Origin: an uncultured Bacilli bacterium
GTDB lineage: Bacteria; Bacillota_I; Bacilli_A; RF39; UBA660
DNA: 39,477 nucleotides
NCBI GenBank assembly: GCA_944350415.1
Contig: CALVOY010000043.1
Coordinates: forward strand, 1 to 39,477
Direction: 5' to 3'
The position numbers and the translations under genes were made by a program. Positions 12,608 to 23,566 of the stretch are shown here, one piece after another; position 1 is the first letter of the stretch, and each line of letters starts with the position of its first letter. The notes beneath the pieces are model-generated. The model did not search any database, was not told the DNA's origin, and saw nothing but the letters and a program-made list of their open reading frames with translations.

Positions 12608-13432
12608 ATGACATTAGATAGTATTATTACTGTTATTAAAAAAATTATAGATATTTCATTGGTTTGGTTGGCTTTTTATTATATATTGAAAAATATTAGA
12701 AATAATGTAAAGTTGACTTTATTATTTAAAGGAGTAGCTATTATATTAATTTTAAAAATTGTTAGCGATTTCTTTGGATTGACTACGATAGGTCTTTTAT
12801 TAGAATATGTAATTATGTGGGGTCCACTTGCTCTAATTATTATTTTCCAACCAGAAATTCGTAATGTATTAGAACAGATTGGAAAAACGCAATTATTGGG
12901 ACGTCACAAAGTACTAACAGTAGATGAAAGAGAGCATTTGGTTTATGAAATTATCACTGCTGTTGAGTATTTGAGAAAGGCTAGAATTGGGGCTTTAATT
13001 GTCTTAGAAAGAGATATTAGTTTAACTAACTATATTGAAAAGGCAAAAAAAGTATATGCTGATTTATCTAGCGATTTATTAATTTCTATTTTCTTCCCTA
13101 ATAACCCGCTTCATGACGGTGGGGTGATCATTCAGGGAGACCGTATTAGTTGTGCTGGTGCTGTATTTCCAACTAGTAATAGCTCTAAGGTAAGCAAAAA
13201 ATTTGGAACTCGTCATCGTGCAGCCTTAGGAATTACAGAAGAAAGTGATGCTATTAGTGTAGTAGTATCAGAAGAAACTGGTAGAATCAGCATTGCTGTA
13301 AAAGGAGAACTATTCTATAATTTGTCTATTGATGATGTTAGAATGATGCTAATTGATGAGCTAAGACCAAAACAAGAAGAAGATTATTTAGATGAATTAG
13401 ATGAGGAAGATATTTATGAAGAAGATAAGTAA
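12608..13432 (+). CDS. cdaA: diadenylate cyclase CdaA
   Basis: Makes cyclic di-AMP from two ATP at the membrane. Three N-terminal membrane helices (about residues 15-80) precede the DAC domain with NPLHDGGVII (DGA/DGG motif) and FGTRHRAALG (RHR motif). The C-terminal tail is very acidic. 274 aa is typical of CdaA (YbbP/DacA). Its last 17 nt overlap cdaR, the usual partner gene. The third member of the usual trio, glmM, is not here; a convergent DUF378 gene follows instead. Confidence 0.96.
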   Translation: MTLDSIITVIKKIIDISLVWLAFYYILKNIRNNVKLTLLFKGVAIILILKIVSDFFGLTTIGLLLEYVIMWGPLALIIIFQPEIRNVLEQIGKTQLLGRHKVLTVDEREHLVYEIITAVEYLRKARIGALIVLERDISLTNYIEKAKKVYADLSSDLLISIFFPNNPLHDGGVIIQGDRISCAGAVFPTSNSSKVSKKFGTRHRAALGITEESDAISVVVSEETGRISIAVKGELFYNLSIDDVRMMLIDELRPKQEEDYLDELDEEDIYEEDK

Positions 13433-14765
13433 GAAGATTATTCTATTTTTTGACAAATGGTTAATTACTCCAATTACTAAATTAATCTTATTTATAACGG
13501 ATTTTGTTAAAAACAATGGGAGAGAAATTGAAAAATTTATCAATAAAAAACAGACTTTGATTGTATTGTCATTAATATTTGCATTTATTGTGTTTTTTAT
13601 AGTAGATCAAAACTCAGATACGATTTTAAATAAAAATGCTGAAGTTTTGTATAATCAACCAGTAATAGCAGAATATAATGAAGAAGCTTATGTAATTGAA
13701 GGACTTCCTACTACTGTAGATGTTACTTTGATTGGTCGAACATCGGATTTGTATTTGGCTAAACAATATACTTCTAATTTAAGTGTTTCAGTAGATTTAA
13801 GAGGCTTAACACCAGGAAGTCATAAAGTAACCTTGAACTATACACAAGGCTTAAAAGCTCTGAAAACAATTGATTATAAAATAGATCCATCTACTGCTAA
13901 TATTGTGGTGTATGAAAAAGTATCAGAAACAAGAGAATTAGATTATGATATTTTACATAAAGATCATTTAGATAGTAAGTTAATTTTAGATAGTGTAGAT
14001 TTGAGTAGAAATGATGTAATTATCAAAGGAGCTGCTTATAAATTAGAGCAAGTAGCTTCCGTAAAAGCTTTAGTAGATATTGACGATATTAGCAATCCAA
14101 AAGAAGGGACTTTTACATTGAAAGATATTCCATTAATTGCTTATGATGCAGAGGGACAGCCAGTAGATGTAGAAATTGTTCCAAGTAGTGTGGATGCTCA
14201 AGTTAAGATTACTTCTCCAAGTAAGGAAGTTGCTTTGCAAATTATTCCAAAAGGAGAGCTTGCATTTGGTAAATCTATTAAGGAATTTACTTCCTCTGTA
14301 TCTAGTGTAACTATCTATGGTGAAGAAAGTGTCATCAATGAAATCGATTCTATTCCTGTAGAAATAGATGTAACCGATCTATCCAGTGATAAAACATTTA
14401 ATGTGAATATTACCAAACCATCTGGAGTTCGTGATATTAGTAGTAAGACTGTTTCTATCAAAGTAACCTTAGATGATGTTATTACAAAAGAATTTACTAA
14501 TATGCAGATTACTACAGTGAATTTAGACCATGACTTTAATGCTAATGCGGTATCACGAGAAGATAGTGAGGTGACAGTAATAGTCAAAGGTAGTAGTGAA
14601 GTAGTAAATAATTTAGATCCTGCTACGATTCGAGTTACTGTTGATTTAAGTGGATATACTACACCAGGAGAATATGAAGTAGATGTTTTAGTTAGTGGAG
14701 ATGATTTGAAACTTAGTTATGAATCTAAAACCAAAAAAGTAAAAATTAGAATAGAAGCAAAATAA
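13416..14765 (+). CDS. cdaR: CdaA regulator, YbbR-domain protein CdaR
   Basis: A membrane-anchored extracytoplasmic regulator of the cyclase encoded just upstream. It has one helix near residues 45-63, then about four YbbR repeats, recognisable from recurring patterns such as VDVTLIGRTSDL, VDLRGLTPGSHKV, VTIYGEESVIN and VDLSGYTTPGEYEV. I prefer ATG 13416, which has GAGGAAGA (13404-13410) in front, over ATG 13401. The frame overlaps cdaA, so translation is probably coupled. Confidence 0.94.
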   Translation: MKKISKKIILFFDKWLITPITKLILFITDFVKNNGREIEKFINKKQTLIVLSLIFAFIVFFIVDQNSDTILNKNAEVLYNQPVIAEYNEEAYVIEGLPTTVDVTLIGRTSDLYLAKQYTSNLSVSVDLRGLTPGSHKVTLNYTQGLKALKTIDYKIDPSTANIVVYEKVSETRELDYDILHKDHLDSKLILDSVDLSRNDVIIKGAAYKLEQVASVKALVDIDDISNPKEGTFTLKDIPLIAYDAEGQPVDVEIVPSSVDAQVKITSPSKEVALQIIPKGELAFGKSIKEFTSSVSSVTIYGEESVINEIDSIPVEIDVTDLSSDKTFNVNITKPSGVRDISSKTVSIKVTLDDVITKEFTNMQITTVNLDHDFNANAVSREDSEVTVIVKGSSEVVNNLDPATIRVTVDLSGYTTPGEYEVDVLVSGDDLKLSYESKTKKVKIRIEAK

Positions 14766-15032: not shown

Positions 15033-15100
15033 AAAAAAAATATTCGTGAATAATGTATTTTTTTATTCATAGTATTAAATGAAGGAAAAGAGGAGTGAAA

Positions 15101-15385
15101 ATGAAAAAAATATTTTTGTCTTTAATGATGATATGTTGTTGTTTTATTACTGGATGTTTTGGGAATACTAGTAATGATGTCTTAAAAGATATTACCAAGC
15201 AATATGATGGTTTAAAAGCTTATGAATTAACAGGTGATTTGGAAATAGTAAATAATGATGATGTATATAACTATGATGTTAAAGTTATTTATCAAAAAAA
15301 GGATAAATTTTATGTAAGTCTTAAAAATCGTAACAATAATCATGAACAAATTATTTTAAAAAATGAAGAAGGAGTTTATGTCTAG
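15101..15385 (+). pseudogene. 5' half of an interrupted lipoprotein gene (LolA-like)
   Basis: Signal peptide with lipobox ITGC (Cys at residue 22 of the product), then an extracytoplasmic start. The frame runs ...KNEEGVYV and meets TAG (15383-15385), which belongs to the inserted element. The missing remainder begins LTPSLNKSFKF at 22738, 7.36 kb downstream. Joined, the two parts give a lipoprotein with a LolA/sporulation-lipoprotein-like beta domain and a C-terminal DUF4367-like domain. ATG 15101 is preceded by GAGGAGTG; the GTG at 15095 is part of that RBS. As it stands, this half would make a 94-aa truncated lipoprotein. Confidence 0.88.
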
Positions 15386-15401
15386 ACACACAAGGGTGTA
15401 A
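15371..15401. other. attL of the serine-recombinase element
   Basis: The left half of attB (GGAGTTTAT, 15371-15379) meets the crossover GT (15380-15381) and the element arm CTAGACACACAAGGGTGTAA (15382-15401). The GT is shared with the right end at 22736-22737. The reconstructed attB, GGAGTTTAT-GT-ATTAACTCC, has 6-bp inverted arms and GT at its exact centre. Confidence 0.85.
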
Positions 15402-15672
15402 CTTTTTTTGAAAAAGTAGCAAAACATTTTAATACATGGGTTTCTACAAAGGATATAGTGTAAGAACTCTTTTTTTATGTCATAATTATTATGTACTGAC
15501 TGTTTGAAAATATGAAATGGTTATTGAGAAAGATTGATAAGTTTTAATGAATAGAGTGAATGTTCATAATAAAAGAATAGTAATTACTAAGAATGATATT
15601 AATACAGTTTATCTACTTTTCTTAGTCATCTATTATAAATTTCAATTTTTTAATGCAATTATGCTAATATAT

Positions 15673-15701
15673 TTGAAAAACTTTAGTGGTTGTAATATAA
15701 T
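15673..15701 (+). promoter_or_regulatory. promoter of the element's XRE regulator
   Basis: TTGAAA (15673-15678) and TATAAT (15696-15701), spacing 17 nt. Transcription would start near 15708, at the foot of the hairpin that begins at 15711. The stretch 15386-15672 between attL and this promoter holds no credible gene. Confidence 0.7.
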
Positions 15702-15710
15702 GAAATTATC

Positions 15711-15761
15711 AAGCAGTACAATTAATTAAATATTTTTATTTAATATTTGTACTGCTTTTTT
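15711..15761 (+). terminator. strong hairpin with T-run between promoter and XRE gene (attenuator or small RNA end)
   Basis: AAGCAGTACAA (15711-15721) pairs perfectly with TTGTACTGCTT (15747-15757). The inner AT-rich arms also pair, and TTTTTT follows. The RBS of the regulator starts 4 nt later. With the promoter at 15673-15701 the transcript would begin at the hairpin and normally stop after about 50 nt, so the regulator may depend on read-through, or the product may be a small RNA. A diverged copy of the whole arrangement lies at 18307-18451. Confidence 0.75.
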
Positions 15762-15776
15762 AGTAGGAGATATATT

Positions 15777-16610
15777 ATGAATCAAGAAAAAGTAGGAATT
15801 TTTATTGCCGAATTAAGAAAAGAAAAAAAGTTAACTCAGGTTCAATTAGGAGAAAAATTAGGAGTTACTGATAAGACAGTATCAAAATGGGAAAAAGGAA
15901 TATCCGCACCCAGTATTACAATTCTAAATGATTTAAGTAGCATATTGGGAATAACAACGACAGAACTACTTAGTGGTGAAAGATTAAATAAAATCAATCC
16001 GCAAAAAGTGGATAATACCATATATTCAAATATAAAGTTTTATACCAAGATTAATAAGAAAAAATATTTGAGAAAAATTTCAATCTGTTTTATTGGAGTA
16101 GTATTATTGTTTTTGATAATAATAGTATTATTGTTTTTGAATAATAATTATGATAATTGTTATATTTATGAGCTAAGTAGCGGGGATGAAAATTTTAAAA
16201 TAAATGGTATTATATCTTTAACGACTGAAAAAGACATTATTAGTATAAATTCAATAGAAAACATTTCTAATTACGAATTAGATAATGAAATGGTATATTC
16301 TTATGAATTTTCATTGAATATAGATAAAGAAATAATTTATAAAGAAGGCAATATTTCTTTATATGAATATAATAATAGTGACCAAGCAATATATTTAAAT
16401 GAAGTTTTTAATAAAATAAAGATCTATGTTACTGAAAATAGTAATTACGATTCTGTTATACAAGACGATATTTTTGAAAATGAAAATATTGTTCTTAAAA
16501 TAAGATATATAAATAAGGAATTAATCGAAAAAGAGGTTAATTTAGATATAAAGCTTAATAAAATCTTTTCGAATAATAAAATATTTTATGATGGTGGAAA
16601 TAAATTTTAA
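15777..16610 (+). CDS. XRE-family regulator with membrane anchor and extracytoplasmic domain
   Basis: A 277-aa protein with an N-terminal HTH_3 domain (residues about 5-60; LTQVQLGEKLGVTDKTVSKWE is the helix-turn-helix), a linker, one membrane helix (about 102-126) and an external domain of about 150 residues. This is a one-component regulator layout in which an external signal could reach DNA directly. RBS AGGAGA precedes ATG 15777; a longer frame from TTG 15747 begins inside the terminator stem and is unlikely. The next gene is a secreted protein 299 nt downstream, which this regulator probably controls. Confidence 0.85.
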   Translation: MNQEKVGIFIAELRKEKKLTQVQLGEKLGVTDKTVSKWEKGISAPSITILNDLSSILGITTTELLSGERLNKINPQKVDNTIYSNIKFYTKINKKKYLRKISICFIGVVLLFLIIIVLLFLNNNYDNCYIYELSSGDENFKINGIISLTTEKDIISINSIENISNYELDNEMVYSYEFSLNIDKEIIYKEGNISLYEYNNSDQAIYLNEVFNKIKIYVTENSNYDSVIQDDIFENENIVLKIRYINKELIEKEVNLDIKLNKIFSNNKIFYDGGNKF

Positions 16611-16650
16611 AGAGCGCAAATTTTTGAACTCTTTTTTCTTTTTTATTAAA

Positions 16651-16681
16651 ACTCTCCAAAAAAGATACCTAACTCTCCAAA
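16651..16681 (+). repeat. direct repeat ACTCTCCAAA, 21-bp period
   Basis: ACTCTCCAAA at 16651-16660 and again at 16672-16681. Two half-sites on the same face of the helix upstream of a secreted-protein gene are typical of activator sites; LytTR-type sites have the same 21-bp period. A TATGAT (16707-16712) 25 nt downstream could be the -10. The remaining sequence to 16908 is A+T-rich without a gene; it includes an AGGAGG (16836-16841) with no good start. Confidence 0.5.
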
Positions 16682-16908
16682 TAAGAGGTGTTAATTTTTA
16701 ATTAATTATGATAAGTTAAAGACAAAAGAAGATAAATAATTTTATTAAAGATAATTGAAACTTAATTATTGTTAACAACATTATTAGTAAAATGCGTACG
16801 GTTTGTGAAGATGTTAGTTATAAATACTTTTAATGAGGAGGTTTGAGATATATTATAAGAAAATGTAAAATGTATAGAAAATAAAAAAATATAGGAAGGA
16901 TAGTTAAT

Positions 16909-17856
16909 ATGAAAAAGTTTTTAAGTTTCACTATGATAACATTATTAATGTCTCCATTAGCAATCTTGAATGTGTTTGCATTAGATAATAATTCTAATCA
17001 ATCTTCATTAGTTAAAATGGGAGAAGTGACAGAAGCAAAATTAATAAACAATTTTTTAGAGCAGGCACCTGAAGAATTAGTTGAATTATATAATGATGAC
17101 AGTTTTGAAATTACTTACGAGTGGTTTGATGAAGATGGTAATTTTGATACAGATTTTGAAATTATGACTCAATATATTGAAACAGTTACAAAATATGAAA
17201 ATGGAGAAGTTGTTGATGTAGAAGAGCATACTTTAACAAAAGAAGAATATGATTCATACGATAACACTGCTTCTACTTATAGTTACCAAATAGGTAACTG
17301 TACTTTAGATAGTCCAATGTATAATGATTGTTGGGAAACAAACGCAAAAAGATTAACTTTAGCAATTAAAAGAGAGTATCCTACTGATGAAGAAAACTGG
17401 CAAAAATTAAAAATAGCGGTTATTAATACTTGGAAAACCATTCCATCAGTTAAATCTTATGATACAATTGGCTTAAATCATGAAGGTACATTTAATGTTA
17501 CAAATGCTTATGGATATCAAAATTGGGATGGAAATGTAATAACATATTCATATAATGGAACTAATATGAAGAAAGATTCTTCTGGTGTTAGCATTTCACA
17601 AAATATCGTTGATAGTACTACAAGTTCATTATCAAATATACTTTGGGTACATGGACAATTTAACTCTGGTGCACAACATATAAACGCATCATATCAACAT
17701 GCAGTTAAAAATATTAGTTTAGAAACTTCGAAAGACTTTACTTTTAACGCAGATGGTATGGGAGGAGTTTTCATGTGGAATTCTTCATACAGTAATTGGG
17801 ATAATATGAGAGGAGTTTGCGCAAATATAGCAACAAATTATTTGTGGGTTTGCTAG
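16909..17856 (+). CDS. secreted protein of unknown family (paralogue A)
   Basis: A 315-aa protein with a clear Sec signal peptide (residues about 1-25, ending VFALDN). A middle acidic region is followed by a C-terminal domain carrying NTWKTIPSVKSYDTIGL, YQHAVKNIS and a GGVFMWNSSYSNWD segment. The gene at 18489 encodes a shorter protein with the same landmarks (EWKKMPSTRSYDIIGI, YSHATKNIS, GGILLDSS), so they are paralogues. There is a Cys pair (NCTLDSPMYNDC) and C-terminal cysteines. Not recognised by name. RBS AGGAAGGA precedes the ATG. As element cargo behind a sensor-regulator it could be a secreted effector, bacteriocin-like protein or surface factor; none of this is shown. Confidence 0.8.
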   Translation: MKKFLSFTMITLLMSPLAILNVFALDNNSNQSSLVKMGEVTEAKLINNFLEQAPEELVELYNDDSFEITYEWFDEDGNFDTDFEIMTQYIETVTKYENGEVVDVEEHTLTKEEYDSYDNTASTYSYQIGNCTLDSPMYNDCWETNAKRLTLAIKREYPTDEENWQKLKIAVINTWKTIPSVKSYDTIGLNHEGTFNVTNAYGYQNWDGNVITYSYNGTNMKKDSSGVSISQNIVDSTTSSLSNILWVHGQFNSGAQHINASYQHAVKNISLETSKDFTFNADGMGGVFMWNSSYSNWDNMRGVCANIATNYLWVC

Positions 17857-17918
17857 TAAATACTTATTAAATCAATTGTTACTTTCATGATATAATCTTT
17901 TTAAATAGGAGTGGTTTT

Positions 17919-18320
17919 ATGAAAAAATATATTATAGGCATCTTAATAATTATACTTTGTATTGTATCTGTATTGGTTGTTTATTTTAAAACACAGTATA
18001 AAAATCAAAATAATGATTTGTTAGGAACATGGATTGCTGATGGGACACAATATCAATTGATAAAAGAAATTGTCGATGGAAAGCCAATTTATATTAGTGA
18101 TGATAATCCCTATTACTTGGATATTAAATCTGATAATACTTATTTATTAAATTTTAACAACGATTATACTGAAGCAGAAATTGGTACTTACGAAGTAGAT
18201 CAAAATAAAATATTCTTTTTTCCTAAAGATACCATGAAAACTATGTGGAGTTGTAAGATTAATAATGAAACAAAATTGCAAGACTGTGAAATTCATGCAA
18301 GTAGCTTTGAAAAATCTTGA
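17919..18320 (+). CDS. small membrane-anchored protein, lipocalin-like domain
   Basis: A 133-aa protein with one N-terminal helix (residues about 4-23) and an extracytoplasmic domain that begins LLGTWIADGTQYQ and alternates short polar strands (YYLDIKSDNTYLLNFN, EIGTYEVDQNKIFFF). The GTW start and strand pattern recall small lipocalin-like beta barrels. It lies between the two secreted paralogues with its own TGA-TATAAT (17891-17896) and could protect the cell from them; that immunity idea is a guess from position. Confidence 0.75.
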   Translation: MKKYIIGILIIILCIVSVLVVYFKTQYKNQNNDLLGTWIADGTQYQLIKEIVDGKPIYISDDNPYYLDIKSDNTYLLNFNNDYTEAEIGTYEVDQNKIFFFPKDTMKTMWSCKINNETKLQDCEIHASSFEKS

Positions 18321-18403
18321 TAACTGTTATATAACTTAATGATCAAGTGGTACATTTATAATTAAATAAGCGGATATGTTATTTGATTATAATGTACTTT
18401 TTT
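18307..18403 (+). ncRNA. duplicate promoter-hairpin module (possible small RNA)
   Basis: TTGAAA (18307-18312) and TATAAC (18330-18335), spacing 17 nt, are followed by ATCAAGTGGTACATT and a long hairpin (18345-18399) whose inner arms ATAATTAAATAA and TTATTTGATTAT pair with one G-U, ending in TTTTTT. This matches the module at 15673-15761 in promoter, spacing, the ATCAAG-GTACA start and the following RBS-ATGAATCAAGAA. The hairpin has a GG bulge. Confidence 0.6.
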
Positions 18404-18418
18404 ATAGGAGATGTTAAT

Positions 18419-18451
18419 ATGAATCAAGAAATCAGATGTGTTGATTTTTAA
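18419..18451 (+). pseudogene. remnant of a second XRE regulator (first codons only)
   Basis: After RBS AGGAGA an ATG opens MNQEIRCVDF and stops at TAA. The intact regulator at 15777 begins MNQEKVG with the same leader. Only the first four codons match clearly, so this is either the decayed stub of a duplicate regulator or a tiny leader peptide. Confidence 0.5.
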
Positions 18452-18488
18452 CAAAATAGGTTAAATTTTAATCAGAAGGAGGAGAATT

Positions 18489-19301
18489 ATGAATAATATT
18501 ACAAAAAAAATTCTTGCATTAATAATATGTTTACTGAGTGTTACTAATATAGAAGTTTTTGCATTAGATTCTGATAATACTATTGTAAATAATAATAATA
18601 TTTTTATTACAGAAATAGAGTATCAAAACTTATTAAATTTAGGTTTTACGGATAATGAAATTATGAATATGTCATTAAAAGAATTTGAAGAAAATAAGAT
18701 TCTTCAGGGAGAAATTGTTTCACAAAATACTATATATATGGATGAACAAAATAATATATTAAATAATAATGCTTCTGTATTTGGTTTGCAAACTGGTTAT
18801 ATTGAAACTGCATCAAAAAAAATGACAACTACTATAATATCTGTAAATGGTAAATATCGTTACAAAATAACCTTAGAATGGAAGAAAATGCCTTCCACAA
18901 GAAGTTACGATATTATTGGAATTGGTATTGATACTAATGTGAAAATAAATTCTGCAATATATTTTCAGCAAAATTTTTGTTATTCAACGAATAATTGTAG
19001 TAGTAGTATTGTAAATACTGTTAATTCAACTTCAACTGGTGCGACTTCTACATTCCAATTGCCATCTAGTACAATAGTATCATTAAGTTCATATTTATAT
19101 TTTGATGTTAGTAAAAATACGACTTCTACAATAACACAATTAAATGCATATGGTGATTATTCACATGCAACAAAAAATATTAGCAAAAGTAATTCTAATA
19201 ATCATTCGATTAATAGGGGAGGAATATTATTAGATAGTTCCATATCAGATTATTATGATAGTATTGCAACAGCAAAAGCAATTTGGACAGGCAGTTGGTA
19301 A
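18489..19301 (+). CDS. secreted protein of unknown family (paralogue B)
   Basis: A 270-aa protein with signal peptide (residues about 1-25, ending EVFALDS). It shares the C-terminal landmarks of the protein at 16909: EWKKMPSTRSYDIIGI, a Ser/Thr-rich middle, YSHATKNIS and GGILLDSSISDYYD. The N-terminal region between signal and domain is different and shorter. RBS GAAGGAGGAG is strong. It directly follows the duplicate promoter-hairpin module and the regulator stub, as expected if a regulator-plus-secreted-protein unit was duplicated. Function unknown. Confidence 0.78.
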   Translation: MNNITKKILALIICLLSVTNIEVFALDSDNTIVNNNNIFITEIEYQNLLNLGFTDNEIMNMSLKEFEENKILQGEIVSQNTIYMDEQNNILNNNASVFGLQTGYIETASKKMTTTIISVNGKYRYKITLEWKKMPSTRSYDIIGIGIDTNVKINSAIYFQQNFCYSTNNCSSSIVNTVNSTSTGATSTFQLPSSTIVSLSSYLYFDVSKNTTSTITQLNAYGDYSHATKNISKSNSNNHSINRGGILLDSSISDYYDSIATAKAIWTGSW

Positions 19302-19331
19302 TATAATTATATTAAATTTTTAAAAGCAAAA

Positions 19332-19352
19332 GGTTATCAACTAGGGATAACC
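19332..19352 (+). terminator. hairpin after paralogue B
   Basis: GGTTATC (19332-19338) pairs with GATAACC (19346-19352). The downstream sequence ATCTTGTT is only moderately T-rich, so termination would be weak. Confidence 0.4.
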
Positions 19353-19359
19353 ATCTTGT

Positions 19360-19480
19360 TATAATATATAGGTATGTATGAAGAATACTGAGTATATTTA
19401 TTCAAAAAATGATAATTGAAATCTTTTATACTTAAGATTTTTATACAATTAAAAAAGGTAAATCAGTGATTGCCTTTTTT
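19360..19480 (+). ncRNA. candidate small RNA (promoter and terminator, no gene between)
   Basis: An extended -10 (TGT-TATAAT, box 19360-19365) is followed about 85 nt later by a strong terminator: AAAAAAGG (19451-19458) with CCTTTTTT (19473-19480), plus an inner AATCA/TGATT stem. In between there is a second hairpin (AAATCTT/AAGATTT) and only a 5-codon frame. No good -35 is visible. This accounts for most of the gap 19302-19630. Confidence 0.4.
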
Positions 19481-19630
19481 CTTGCCAAATTTAATGATTA
19501 TATACTTGAATAAATTTGCTTTAAAATGTTAATTCTAATAATAAAGGCATAATTAGAATATGCTTTTTAAAATATTTAGAACTTTCTTTGTTATACTCAA
19601 TAAAATAAATGATATTTGAGGTATAGAATT

Positions 19631-19807
19631 ATGAAAATTAAAGCAAATGATTATACCAAAGGTGAAATTATAAAAATTTTAAGAGAATGGACGGGGTTAA
19701 CCCAAGCAGAATTTGGAAAGTCGATTGGGAAATCTAAACCATCTATTCAAGCTTATGAATTAGATAAAGTCAACTTTGGAATTGAAACTCTTTTAAAATA
19801 TGTTTAA
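19631..19807 (+). pseudogene. XRE-family HTH protein, C-terminally truncated
   Basis: From ATG 19631 (RBS GAGGT) the frame gives 58 aa: NDYTKGEIIKILREWTGLTQ, then AEFGKSIGKSKPSIQAYE, a compact helix-turn-helix, stopping at IETLLKYV. A related sequence at 20131 continues with LMDICKKHGIKITLEKM, showing what is missing here. The small DNA-binding protein may still fold, so loss of function is not certain. Confidence 0.6.
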
Positions 19808-20105
19808 TACTTTCTATTACTTTATATAATATACCTCCTAGTAATAAACAAAATATAAAAACATTTAGTTCACTACTAATAGAAATTATATAAAATCCTA
19901 AACCACCTGTCATACTATTAGAAGCGAGTGCTTTTGCTATTTCTATATCCATTGGTGGAATATATAATATTTTGGTTAATGTTATATTAATAATCAATAC
20001 TGCAAATATTAATAGAACAGCTTGGTCTTTAATAATTAACAGTCCCTCCTTTATATAATCATATTTTGACAACGGCAATTTCCCCACAATGGGGAAAATA
20101 CACAC
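19770..20105 (-). CDS. small membrane protein fragment between two XRE pieces
   Basis: The frame predicts two membrane segments (AVLLIFAVLIINITLT and IFCLLLGGILYKVI). Its 3' end runs antisense into the truncated XRE gene, so the last residues are probably not native. The true start is unclear: GTG 20105 has no RBS, while AGGAGG (20044-20049, minus) is followed 8 nt later by ATT, another possible non-canonical start. A hairpin TTTCCCC/GGGGAAA lies at 20080-20097. It may be a remnant brought in by insertion. Confidence 0.4.
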   Translation of the reverse strand: MCIFPIVGKLPLSKYDYIKEGLLIIKDQAVLLIFAVLIINITLTKILYIPPMDIEIAKALASNSMTGGLGFYIISISSELNVFIFCLLLGGILYKVIESIKHILKEFQFQS

Positions 20106-20130
20106 TAAATTATACTCTTCTACTATATAA

Positions 20131-20298
20131 TGGACTGAGTTAAGTCAATGTGAGTTTGGAAAATCAATTGGAAAATCTCATGGTGCAATTAAAAAGTATG
20201 AATCTGGTGAAAGAAAAATTACTTTAGAGACATTAATGGATATTTGTAAAAAACACGGAATTAAAATAACTCTCGAAAAAATGCCAAATAAAAAATAG
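20131..20298 (+). pseudogene. XRE-family HTH remnant, N-terminus missing
   Basis: The frame WTELSQCEFGKSIGKSHGAI, then KKYESGERKITLETLMDICKKHG, is clearly homologous to the XRE fragment at 19631 but is preceded directly by a TAA and has no start codon. It keeps the helix-turn-helix and the normal C-terminus. With the upstream fragment it gives two partial copies flanking about 320 nt of other DNA. Confidence 0.75.
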
Positions 20299-20322
20299 TT
20301 ATTTAGAAATAGCATATGATTG

Positions 20323-20357
20323 AAGCCAAGTTTTTAAAAATTTAATTTGGCTTTTTT
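20323..20357 (+). terminator. terminator after the XRE remnant
   Basis: AAGCCAA (20323-20329) pairs with TTGGCTT (20347-20353) followed by TTTT. Confidence 0.7.
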
Positions 20358-20364
20358 AATGTGC

Positions 20365-20527
20365 TTGCATTAGTTTTGTCAAGAGTTATAATATGATAAA
20401 ACCAAAAGAGTTTTGTGATTTAAAGATATTTTTTAATGTAGTGGTTGTTCAGTCATTTTGATACTTCATAAAAATATGAATCAATTTATTTGAAATGAAA
20501 GTGGCACATCACTTATACCACTTTTTT
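20365..20527 (+). ncRNA. candidate structured small RNA in the element
   Basis: TTGCAT (20365-20370) and TATAAT (20387-20392), spacing 16 nt, predict a start near 20399. The terminator is AAAGTGG (20498-20504) with CCACTTT (20518-20524) and a T-run. Between them no frame longer than a few codons exists, but TTGA/TTCATA and TATGAA/TCAA (about 20457-20485) form a 10-bp hairpin with a 3-nt bulge. The transcript would be about 125 nt. Confidence 0.45.
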
Positions 20528-20550
20528 CTTTAGGTGAAAATGAAATCGAT

Positions 20551-20695
20551 TTGATTTATAAGAAAATGATGCTATATATTAAAAAAATAAGATTTCGTGG
20601 CAAAGTGAATTTTTCTTTGTTAACCGTAGTGTGTTTTTTTAAAGTGATATAAAAAGAAAAATTATTAGGTTCGTCCTGTTAATTTTTCTTTTTTT
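20551..20695 (+). promoter_or_regulatory. leader with terminator/antiterminator before the tiny-gene and recombinase region
   Basis: A promoter (TTGATT 20551-20556; TGC-TATATA, box 20573-20578; 16-nt spacing) leads into a leader ending in a strong terminator: AAAAAGAAAAATTA (20651-20664) with TAATTTTTCTTTTT (20680-20693), an inner AGG/CCT pair and a T-run. AATTTTTCTTT (20608-20618) can pair instead with AAAGAAAAATT (20653-20663) inside the 5' arm, a classic antiterminator option. This suggests attenuation of the downstream small genes. The A/T-rich pairing could arise by chance. Confidence 0.5.
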
Positions 20696-20719
20696 AATTA
20701 TTAAGGGGTGGAAATAAAA

Positions 20720-20845
20720 ATGGGAAACGAAGTAGAAAGTGTTGTTGAATATGGTTTACTTGATAAAATATTTCTTGCTCAATATGATTTGGTGCAAACA
20801 GAGAAGAATGTGGATGATATCATGAGAAAAACAATAGAAAGATAA
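20720..20845 (+). CDS. 41-aa element microprotein
   Basis: ATG 20720 with RBS AAGGGGTGG at 20704-20712 opens a 41-aa frame (MGNEVESVVEYGLLDKIFLA, then QYDLVQTEKNVDDIMRKTIER). It is amphipathic and helical-looking. It is the first of three tiny genes between the attenuator and the recombinase, a place where such elements often encode short accessory proteins. Not recognised. Confidence 0.6.
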   Translation: MGNEVESVVEYGLLDKIFLAQYDLVQTEKNVDDIMRKTIER

Positions 20846-20866
20846 ATAGTGGGAGTTAATATAAAT

Positions 20867-20941
20867 ATGAAATACGGTCTTAAACCTCAATCGACAAAAG
20901 CAGTATTCAAGAAAAAAAATTTTGGACATAAGCTTTATTAG
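20867..20941 (+). CDS. 24-aa basic element microprotein
   Basis: ATG 20867 with RBS GTGGGAG opens MKYGLKPQSTKAVFKKKNFG, ending HKLY. It is strongly basic. The next gene's RBS (AGGTGAT) overlaps its stop, which implies coupled translation. Short length keeps confidence low. Confidence 0.5.
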   Translation: MKYGLKPQSTKAVFKKKNFGHKLY

Positions 20942-20950
20942 GTGATCATT

Positions 20951-21049
20951 ATGAAAATTAATAATCATTTTAATGAAAATGGCAAAACATTTCAAGAAAT
21001 TATGGAACAGTTTCTAGTACTTTATTATAATGAAATATTAGAAAAATAA
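20951..21049 (+). CDS. 32-aa element microprotein (TnpW-like position)
   Basis: RBS TTAGGTGATCATT leads to ATG 20951 and a 32-aa frame (NGKTFQEIMEQFLVLYYNE in the middle). Short proteins of this style, with a T-F/L-x-E-I/L motif, are common just before large serine recombinases in Bacillota elements (for example TnpW of Tn4451-like elements); the match here is by position and style only. Confidence 0.6.
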   Translation: MKINNHFNENGKTFQEIMEQFLVLYYNEILEK

Positions 21050-21113
21050 AATATGGTATGCTATAATATAAGTGTATTGAAATGTTTTGTTACCACAAGA
21101 AATGGAGGTAATG

Positions 21114-22691
21114 ATGATAGGTAGCGAAACATACAAAGTAGGTATTTATTTAAGATTATCTCGTGAAGATGAATTAAAGGGTGAAAGTGGCAGTATTTCT
21201 AATCAAAGAGATATTATTCATAAATATATCAGAGACAATAATCTATTATTTATAGATGAGTATGTAGATGATGGGGTAAGTGGAACTGAATTCGATAGAG
21301 AAGGTTGGAATCGTTTAATTTCCGATATTGAAGCAAAGCGTATCAATATGGTAATTACAAAAGACCTTTCTAGATTTGGAAGAAATGAAGGACAGCAATT
21401 AAGATATTTAGATTATTTTTATGAAAATAGTATAAGATATGTTGCCATATTAGATAATGTAGATACTTTTGATGAATACAATACTTCTAATGAAATGATA
21501 CCAATACAATGTTTTTTTAATGAAAAACATGTAAGAGATACTTCTAAAAAAATGAAAGCTAGTGTACATAGTAAAAGGTCTCAAGGTAATTTTCTTGGAA
21601 AAACAGCGCCATATGGATATATAAAAGATCCTAACAACAAATATAAACTGTTAATAGATGAAGATTCAGCTCAAGTGGTTAGAAAAATATTTCGCTTATT
21701 TGTCCAGGGAAAAAGCATTTCTGAAATATCTAGAATATTAACAGATGAAAAAATTCCTATTCCTAGTGAATATAAACAACTAAAAGTTGGTATAAAATCA
21801 ACAGCTTATGGTATATGGGGATTAAGAACTATCAGTGATATGTTACAACTTCCTACTTATGTTGGAGATTTAACCCAGGGGAGAAGTAAAAAGCCGAGTT
21901 ATAAGTCCAAACGCAGAATAAGACCTAAAAAAGAAGATTGGATTATATGTGAAAATAAATGTCCGGCTATTATTGATAGGGAAACATTTAATCTTGCTCA
22001 AGATATATATAACAGAAATAAGAACCAAGGTAAAAATACTCAAGATATATTATTAAAAGGTTTTGTTTATTGTAAGGAATGTGGTCATACCATAGGATTC
22101 AGACTTCAGAAAGCAAATACAAAAAGTCGAGGTGAAGTTACTCGTTGTTATGGAAATTGCAACTATTGGTCCAAATATAAGAAATATGGTGTATGTACGC
22201 CACATAATATAAAATATTATGAATTAGAAGAATTAATATTAAATGAAATCAAAATGATGTGTAAGAAGTATTTAAAAGAGAATGACTTAAAAAATATTCT
22301 TGCTAACAGTGATAAAGCAAAAAAAGTGCTATATGACTTAGAAGTAAGATTGAAAAGATTAGAAAATGAGGTAGAATTTAGTAGTAAAAAGAAAGAAGAC
22401 CTTTATAATGATAAGTTAGAGGGTATTATTGATTTGGATATGTATAAAAGAATGACAAATAGAATAACGGAAGAGACACTCTCTAAACAAAACGAGATAA
22501 ATGAAATAACTACAAAAATATATAATATAAAGAATAATATAATAGAACACAATCAAAAATACGATAAGGTTATTAAAGAGTATTTATCTATGAAAAAGCC
22601 TAGTGTACAATTATTGTCTAGTATCATAGATAAAATAGTCATAGATGAAGATAAGAATGTTGATATATATTATAAGTTTAAGCCATTTTAA
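21114..22691 (+). CDS. large serine recombinase (site-specific integrase)
   Basis: A 525-aa integrase/excisase. The N-terminal resolvase domain has the catalytic Ser in YLRLSREDE, the DDGVSGTEFDREGW segment and KDLSRFGRNEG. The recombinase domain follows (GNFLGKTAPYGYIKDP; TYVGDLTQGRS), then a zinc ribbon (YCKECGH ... CYGNC), a coiled coil (about residues 400-490) and a C-terminal tail. ATG 21114 lies 5 nt after TGGAGG; 21087 is a TTG without RBS. TGC-TATAAT (box 21062-21067) gives it its own promoter. It ends 44 nt from attR and should act on the GT-centred att sites. Accessory proteins for excision may be among the tiny genes upstream. Confidence 0.96.
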   Translation: MIGSETYKVGIYLRLSREDELKGESGSISNQRDIIHKYIRDNNLLFIDEYVDDGVSGTEFDREGWNRLISDIEAKRINMVITKDLSRFGRNEGQQLRYLDYFYENSIRYVAILDNVDTFDEYNTSNEMIPIQCFFNEKHVRDTSKKMKASVHSKRSQGNFLGKTAPYGYIKDPNNKYKLLIDEDSAQVVRKIFRLFVQGKSISEISRILTDEKIPIPSEYKQLKVGIKSTAYGIWGLRTISDMLQLPTYVGDLTQGRSKKPSYKSKRRIRPKKEDWIICENKCPAIIDRETFNLAQDIYNRNKNQGKNTQDILLKGFVYCKECGHTIGFRLQKANTKSRGEVTRCYGNCNYWSKYKKYGVCTPHNIKYYELEELILNEIKMMCKKYLKENDLKNILANSDKAKKVLYDLEVRLKRLENEVEFSSKKKEDLYNDKLEGIIDLDMYKRMTNRITEETLSKQNEINEITTKIYNIKNNIIEHNQKYDKVIKEYLSMKKPSVQLLSSIIDKIVIDEDKNVDIYYKFKPF

Positions 22692-22715
22692 AATGGTTAT
22701 TAAAAATAGAAAAAA

Positions 22716-22746
22716 TTAAACCTTTGATAGTCTTTGTATTAACTCC
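22716..22746. other. attR of the serine-recombinase element
   Basis: Element arm TTAAACCTTTGATAGTCTTT (22716-22735), crossover GT (22736-22737), then the right half of attB, ATTAACTCC (22738-22746). The element arm matches the reverse complement of the attL element arm in about 14 of 20 positions. Confidence 0.85.
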
Positions 22747-23566
22747 ATCATTAAATAAAAGCTTTAAATTTCAAAGCGATTGGCCATATAATAATTCTCA
22801 GGTTTATTTGATTCAATCTATTTTAGATGATATACTAGATGATGAGGAAAGAAGCTTAGTAGAAAATGAAAATGGTTATATATTTACAACTAGTGTTAAT
22901 TATCCCAATAATCGTAAATTAGTAAAACAAATTGTAACTTTTGATAAAAAATTAAATTTAAAAAAAGTTAGTGTAGTAGATGAAAATGATATTAGTCAAA
23001 TGACTATGACTTTTGCTACTATTGATACGAATCCAACTATTAATGCTGATACTTTTAATTTAAATAAGATTATGGAAGCAACACAAAATAATACTAATAC
23101 TAACACTAATACAGGTGACAATACGAATACTGGTGATAATACTACCGATAATAATACAAATTCCAATTCTAACAGTAATAATCAAAATAATAATCAAGGA
23201 ACAGAAGGAACACAAACAACTAGTACTTTAGAAGATGTGATATATCCGCTTTATATTCCAACTGGTACTGTACTAGCTTCTGAAGAAAAAATTGCTAAGA
23301 CAGATGGAGAAAGAGTCATTATGACTTTTGAAGGAGAAAAACCATTTTTACTAGTAGAAGAGACAGCTAGTATTGAAGAAGAGTTTGCTATTATTCCTAC
23401 TTATGGAGAACCATATTTGTTGATTGATACAGTTGGAGCATTAACAGATAGTTCTATTAGTTGGAGTAGTAATGGAATTGACTATTATTTGGTTTCTGAT
23501 GTCATGAGTCAAGATGAATTATTAGATATTGCTAGAAGTGTTAGTGTAATTCCAACTATGAAGTAA
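22738..23566 (+). pseudogene. 3' half of the interrupted lipoprotein gene
   Basis: Continues the lipoprotein begun at 15101: LTPSLNKSFKFQSDWPYNN and a beta-rich LolA-like domain, then a Thr/Asn/Gly repeat linker (about 23080-23220), then a DUF4367-like domain (YGEPYLLIDTVGA ... GIDYYLVSDVMSQDELLDIARSV). There is no RBS or proper start at this end; a TTG at 22724 lies in the element arm. Without excision this half is probably silent. LolA-like lipoproteins in spore-formers include GerS of Clostridioides difficile, but a germination role here is only a suggestion. Confidence 0.88.

Follow-up and report, generated by a model that had tools for sequence, protein, structure and literature searches.

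Why is a lipoprotein gene broken in two by a serine-recombinase element in a bacterium whose genome encodes Spo0A and SpoIVA, and can the break be undone? The locus lies in the window analysed here, which is the whole of a 39,477-nucleotide stretch of DNA (positions 1 to 39,477 of the forward strand of contig CALVOY010000043.1, GenBank assembly GCA_944350415.1) from an uncultured, gut-type Bacilli bacterium of the lineage Bacillota_I, Bacilli_A, RF39, UBA660. The RF39-type order of the Bacilli has been predicted to include both spore-forming and non-spore-forming species (PMC10868615). Our analyses suggest that the inserted DNA is probably a gene-intervening element that is linked to sporulation and represents a new sub-kind, which recurs at one base across an uncultured family.

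Element boundaries and attachment sites

The element, its attachment sites and the two parts of the gene are located as follows.

15101..15379, plus strand: lipoprotein gene, N-terminal part (signal peptide, lipobox Cys19, residues 1-93), which with GT 15380-15381 codes for ...GVYV and then meets TAG
15371..15401, plus strand: attL, with the left attB half GGAGTTTAT, the core GT 15380-15381 and the inner arm CTAGACACACAAGGG
15380..22735, unstranded: integrated element of about 7,356 bp (GT counted once), from the empty site in G014 and the boundary test
22716..22746, plus strand: attR, with the inner arm TTAAACCTTTGATAGTCTTT, the core GT 22736-22737 and the right attB half ATTAACTCC
22738..23566, plus strand: lipoprotein gene, C-terminal part (residues 94/95-369), frame intact to the stop codon, from the merged frame, the alignment of relatives and the open-frame survey

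A sequence-only reading of the window had held that the element splits the lipoprotein gene between two GT dinucleotides and that its ends can be placed to the base. We scored 58 pairs of identical dinucleotides near both element ends by the summed arm symmetry of the rebuilt attB and attP sites. The pair GT 15380-15381 and 22736-22737 obtained the top score of 21 (8/9 in the attB arms plus 13/20 in the attP arms), against a mean of 8.0 and a standard deviation (SD) of 3.0 over all 58 pairs. The runner-up scored 18 and breaks the joined frame; among the high-scoring pairs, only GT 15380/22736 leaves this frame open, and the alternative dinucleotides were rejected. Random positions reach comparable symmetry with a chance of 0.0005 in the case of attB and 0.0015 in that of attP, whereas attL and attR by themselves are asymmetric (5/9 and 4/9). 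Read from 15101, the lipoprotein frame runs into a stop codon inside the element, and merging the two GT dinucleotides yields a frame of 369 codons.

An empty site was identified in another genome of the same genus (G014), in which an uninterrupted frame of 372 codons, with a protein that is 99% identical, reads GGAGTTTATGTATTAACACC across the site. Furthermore, junctions were read in about 30 occupied loci, several named metagenome-assembled genomes among them, and all break at the identical GT. The boundary test, the empty site and these occupied sites confirm the split and its base-exact boundaries. Discontinuity of the intact genes of relatives at this point, which the sequence-only reading had named as telling against it, was not encountered: these genes are continuous exactly there, and the elements of other genomes share the junctions.

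The rebuilt attB, GGAGTTTAT-GT-ATTAACTCC, has the outer 6-bp inverted arms GGAGTT/AACTCC that had been described; the junction-spanning sequences as rebuilt are GGAGTTTATGTATTAACTCC for attB and CTTTGATAGTCTTTGTCTAGACACACAAG for attP. In relatives, the conservation of attB is limited to GGNGT...ACNCC and the perfect 6-bp arms are conserved only in part. This motif is conserved because it codes for Gly-Val ... Thr-Pro (Gly-Val-Tyr-Val-x-Thr-Pro), and the symmetry of attB is therefore partly a coding constraint. The arm symmetry of attP around the same GT also held, with 13/20 matches (17/25 over a wider span) in place of the "about 14 of 20" given earlier.

The split GerS-like lipoprotein gene

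A Pfam scan of the split lipoprotein gave no match. The NCBIfam model for GerS (NF041286) matches it with 36.5 bits, under the cut-off of 175 bits, which indicates a homologous protein and not an equivalog; B. subtilis too has a match to this model below the cut-off. A profile built from 15 relatives and compared with solved structures reached chain 7RAG_A (E value 1.2e-10), which is named just "Lipoprotein" in the PDB and which we take to be GerS. In C. difficile, GerS activates CwlD, the amidase required for spore cortex modification, and has been described as unique to the Peptostreptococcaceae (PMC8496864). The split protein resembles GerS in being a LolA-like lipoprotein, but is about twice as long, with an extra C-terminal domain (PMC6021603, PMC8496864).

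The distribution of the gene resembles that of Spo0A. Among 247 genomes of the class, with three partial N-terminal matches left uncounted, 72 have both Spo0A and the lipoprotein gene, 6 have Spo0A alone, 1 has the gene alone and 168 have neither. Three of the six genomes with Spo0A alone have a degenerate, weakly matching Spo0A, and the sole genome with the gene alone (G205) has a frameshifted lipoprotein copy. The losses of the two genes track each other, although any p value for this association is inflated by shared ancestry.

A putative promoter was located upstream of the gene.

15048..15075, plus strand: sigma-E-like promoter of the lipoprotein gene, GAATA-N15-CATAGTAT, with its position conserved in relatives

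Of 32 relatives, 17 have the pattern GHATA-N14-18-CATANNNT about 50 bp upstream of the start codon (0.18 in shuffles), and 24 have a looser sigma-E-like pattern (2.1 in shuffles). The region upstream of spoIVA, which is a sigma-E gene in B. subtilis, has the same promoter architecture within the genus. The sigma-K and sigma-G/F consensus sequences were also tried for the lipoprotein promoter and did not fit. Based on the homology to GerS, the co-occurrence with Spo0A and the sigma-E-like promoter, we therefore consider the lipoprotein gene to be very probably a mother-cell sporulation gene of the GerS type. This would place a GerS-like spore gene outside the family to which GerS was thought to be unique.

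Recurrent use of the same site

When relatives were searched with the rebuilt protein, the match was interrupted at residues 91-98 in several of them. Of 291 host-family genomes that were drawn evenly, 244 have the lipoprotein gene, which is split at the same codon in about 39 of these (about one in six), and also in further named genomes. Ten further elements were assembled end to end at the lipoprotein site; these range from 4.7 to 18.8 kb and contain one recombinase of the same group each. In the recombinase tree, the 20 rows that share the lipoprotein site group together against recombinases with other known targets. The branch that unites them has weak support (38/11), and their nearest neighbors, one targeting a BclA-like gene and the other a recombinase gene, fall inside the same well-supported set of 22. 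The suggestion that this recombinase was responsible for the junctions is thus supported by the ten full elements and by the clustering in the tree. The two attP arms match better within an element than between elements (244 matched positions, permutation mean 211, SD 6.6, p 5e-5, 17 distinct elements), as expected if one protein binds both arms. One attB that has been filled repeatedly to the base provides dozens of natural replicates, with empty sites for comparison.

No recombinase relatives were confirmed in viral contigs, and none with more than 60% identity was present in the phage or plasmid collections. The G224 bin (L167 and L168, contigs C169 and C123) contains one intact copy of the gene and one with the element, which share 98.9% identity over 178 bp counted from the junction. 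These paired alleles may represent mixed strains or partial excision and are the sole remaining candidate for a mixed population. Another apparent mix of filled and empty alleles, in G160, was rejected since the two contigs are only 83% identical and thus probably represent another strain or species.

The recombinase and a small upstream gene

The recombinase gene is located at the right end of the element and is preceded by a small open reading frame (ORF).

21114..22691, plus strand: large serine recombinase of about 525 amino acids (Pfam Resolvase E 1e-19, Recombinase E 1e-23, zinc beta ribbon E 1e-7; tree)
20951..21049, plus strand: 32-amino-acid ORF MKINNHFNENGKTFQEIMEQFLVLYYNEILEK, candidate recombination directionality factor, with homologs upstream of related recombinases
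20927..20942, plus strand: CATA box CATAAGCTTTATTAGG, candidate sigma-E-type -10 of the small-ORF gene, from its spoIVA matrix score and conservation in sister elements
21054..21067, plus strand: sigma-A-like TGGTATGCTATAAT, following the small ORF and preceding the recombinase gene, seen in the sequence

The recombinase has the Resolvase N-terminal, Recombinase and zinc ribbon domains that define large serine recombinases. Its domain set and reaction type are shared with the large serine integrases of phages (PHROG 95), whereas the window element is devoid of phage structural genes. In a comparison with CcrB of SCCmec (NCBIfam NF047343, score over 900), it reached 93.8 bits, far from membership in that group. 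In a sister element (L080, 11527-11542), the recombinase stop codon TAA is apparently completed by the host half of attR, in which case integration would set the C-terminus of the recombinase.

Of 57 related loci, 41 have a homologous short ORF that lies upstream of the recombinase by no more than 500 bp, and many of these small ORFs are preceded by CATAARTTTAAATGA, an extended -10 that is also found in spoIVA promoters. With a promoter matrix trained on spoIVA promoters, and the upstream regions of other ORFs in the same loci as controls, 55% of the small-ORF upstreams scored at least 8, as compared to 2.3% of the control ORFs. A strict sigma-E-like consensus was not found inside the window element, in which just the weaker CATA box is matched by the spoIVA matrix. 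A sigma-A-like TATAAT lies between the small ORF and the recombinase in several elements, and a similar motif was seen in L072, L035 and L036. The small ORF is a candidate for the directionality factor, and at 32 amino acids a very small one.

Related elements at other targets

Related recombinases adjoin other interrupted genes. Both halves were found of a LysM-amidase gene in G031 (L187; 4127-4453 and 18982 onwards) and of a BclA-like collagen gene in G003 (L189; 15253-15426 and 18531 onwards), both of which are putative spore-type genes. Only one side was seen of peptidase M14, LysM and collagen-like targets. In Clostridium-type genomes (L083, L084, L086, L087, L088, L093), relatives of the recombinase adjoin sequences that resemble halves of M14 carboxypeptidase genes, and the motifs that were tried did not reveal the counterparts. 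The targets are not confined to spore genes: a recombinase gene contains one sister element, and others lie beside genes named from sequence as Fic or RHS. A related element inserted in another serine recombinase gene was observed at L035 (G012:C46).

Programmed excision or an ordinary mobile element

Since the split gene is of the sporulation type, the likely biology shifts from simple insertion to probable programmed excision. We hypothesize, with fair confidence, that this is a gene-intervening element of the skin/gin type, which is cut out in the mother cell during sporulation and thereby restores the GerS-like gene. The element would have been inserted into the GerS-like spore lipoprotein gene by the large serine recombinase, through attP x attB recombination at the core GT, and the gene would remain split in vegetative cells. 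During sporulation, a sigma-E-like factor in the mother cell would transcribe the shortened 5' portion of the lipoprotein gene together with the small gene of the element, the product of which would be the recombination directionality factor. The recombinase and this factor would then recombine attL with attR, releasing a circle and restoring the 369-codon frame behind its own sigma-E-like promoter, and the element would be inherited through the forespore, where it is retained. We infer the role of the 32-amino-acid ORF, the cell type in which the element is excised and the timing of this event. By analogy with GerS, the restored protein may function in cortex modification through CwlD.

We favor programmed excision because 31 of 32 split genes retain an open C-terminal half (32 of 33 among unsplit genes), because the median ratio of nonsynonymous to synonymous substitutions (dN/dS) is similar in split and unsplit genes (0.19 and 0.21), because spoIVA-like boxes precede the small ORFs, and because sister elements have spore-type targets. 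The low dN/dS of 0.045 between G079 and G212 (both split, in one genus; dS 0.79) would be strong support if the insertion was shared by descent.

We also considered the possibility that this is an ordinary mobile element that targets, as its attB, a conserved segment within a dispensable spore gene, with the gene turned off in the carriers and with rare excision that is independent of sporulation. This is the main rival explanation, although we find it rather unlikely. A plain element with a conserved attB explains much of the data, and Mob_Pre relaxase was identified in some of the sister elements (2 of their 76 cargo proteins). Several other observations weigh against programmed excision. 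The nearest pair of recombinases are 88% alike while the lipoproteins of their hosts are 47-58% alike, which indicates horizontal movement, and the insertions may thus be too recent for the open frames to prove excision. The split half in G224 has a premature stop codon, in a filled copy that stands beside its nearly identical empty copy. The attP circle pattern of the commoner sister clade was absent from the 291 family genomes and from viral contigs, in which the window-type attP was not searched for. The attP arms of the window are less symmetric than most (13/20, as compared to 15-17 in many sisters), its CATA box is of moderate score (6.2, with a control 95th percentile of 5.9), and the p values of the promoter tests (Mann-Whitney p 6e-18 for the small-ORF upstreams) are optimistic since the sequences are related. 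However, an ordinary mobile element leaves the sigma-E-like boxes upstream of the small ORF unexplained, and is difficult to reconcile with the near-complete set of intact halves, with dN/dS values as low as in unsplit genes and with at least two sister elements inside other spore-type genes.

The lower symmetry of the attP arms could alternatively mean that the window copy is a locked-in relic, in which the right arm has drifted and the ability to excise has been lost. This we find improbable: the copy retains a full-length recombinase frame, 88% identical to that of the nearest relative, and an undamaged small ORF, its core GT and attB halves are perfect, and similar right arms occur in close sisters from the same clade of recombinases. 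The draft genome consists of 76 contigs, of which the window is one, and an assembly artefact could in principle have joined unrelated contigs within the gene, but the same arrangement has been independently assembled at the same base in at least 10 other genomes, which makes this explanation hardly credible.

Comparison with known systems

The window element has the sequence-level features that are shared by skin, gin, SP-beta in spsM and yin, namely its own serine recombinase, att sites that restore the frame upon recombination and, as judged indirectly from the GerS homology, the Spo0A co-occurrence and the sigma-E-like promoter, a sporulation-gene target. The closest known system is gin in gerE of Bacillus cereus ATCC10987, which is likewise a non-phage intervening element with a serine recombinase and a sporulation gene as its target, and the excision of which requires a small extra factor, GirX (PMC5595907). 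However, gin is 28.6 kb long, with three recombinases, a shared sequence of 9 bp and a regulator gene as its target, whereas the window element, in a different lineage, is 7.4 kb long and targets a GerS-like lipoprotein gene; it has a single recombinase, and its junctions share a GT, with agreement over TGT.

In the skin element in sigK of C. difficile (CD1231/CD1234), the recombinase has a sigma-A promoter while the directionality factor CD1234 is under the control of sigma-E and SpoIIID (PMC5025042); CD1234 is 53 amino acids long (PMC10747680). The window element resembles skin in the combination of a large serine recombinase, behind a putative sigma-A-type promoter, with a tiny candidate factor behind a candidate mother-cell-type promoter. 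It differs in its target and in that skin is usually called prophage-like, whereas here phage genes are lacking and the 32-amino-acid candidate is located directly upstream of the recombinase. Excision of SP-beta from spsM in B. subtilis (PMC4191935) and of yin from yabG in C. botulinum (PMC10747680) also rebuilds spore-envelope or coat genes, but these are prophages or prophage-like elements for which excision has been experimentally demonstrated, whereas the window element is known from its sequence alone.

A search of the open-access literature found no paper that reports this target or this lineage. The sporulation-linked rearrangements known so far are few and isolated, and come from Bacillus and Clostridium-type species. 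One broader hypothesis is that spore-type genes (GerS-like, LysM-amidase, BclA-like) serve as attB for a large set of small non-phage elements across the lineage, each of these sites with its own recombinase clade, and with a conserved, minute directionality factor under mother-cell control. We hold this only tentatively, at somewhat less than even confidence. If true, sporulation in these uncultured spore formers with small genomes would commonly involve programmed gene rearrangement, at the GerS-like gene alone in about one in six carriers of that gene.

Cargo and element class

Between attL and the small ORF, the window element contains the following cargo genes.

15777..16610, plus strand: XRE-type regulator with a transmembrane segment (HTH_3 E 5e-16)
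16909..17856, plus strand: secreted 315-amino-acid protein of no known family, with distant relatives in 10 other searched genomes
17919..18320, plus strand: membrane-anchored 133-amino-acid protein of no known family (library scans)
18489..19301, plus strand: secreted 270-amino-acid paralog of the 315-amino-acid protein (27% identity over 222 amino acids, E 3e-9)
19631..19807, plus strand: short XRE-type ORF (HTH_3 E 3e-8)

Matches to PHROG families in the element are restricted to regulators and the integrase, with no phage structural, packaging or lysis genes, as would be required for a prophage. Protein family scans of the cargo revealed no relaxase, and a transfer origin was not searched for; nor was any defence system found among the window cargo. 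The window element is thus neither a prophage nor a relaxase-bearing mobilizable element. Relatives of the two paralogous secreted proteins (16909-19301) are scattered through the genus and the family, with five matches in G023. Similar XRE-type frames at 19631-19807 and about 20120-20298 flank an ORF on the minus strand (19770-20105), which suggests that a regulator gene in the region 19631-20298 was duplicated or disrupted. Upstream of the split gene, the neighbors at 13401-14765 are presumably cdaA and a cdaR-like gene, as named from sequence and neighborhood knowledge.

The cargo of the sister elements is variable and includes PADLOC candidate families, transporters and regulators. Seven members of an alignment of cargo proteins from L130-L139 (alignment A2) match the PADLOC candidate family PDC-S13 (best E 3e-114), and these matches possibly correspond to a recurring gene of about 285 amino acids near attR. 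In a 3.1-kb element (L079, 8581-9801), the recombinase and the small ORF are accompanied by only one larger gene, which ends in a glutamine- and glycine-rich collagen-like tail.

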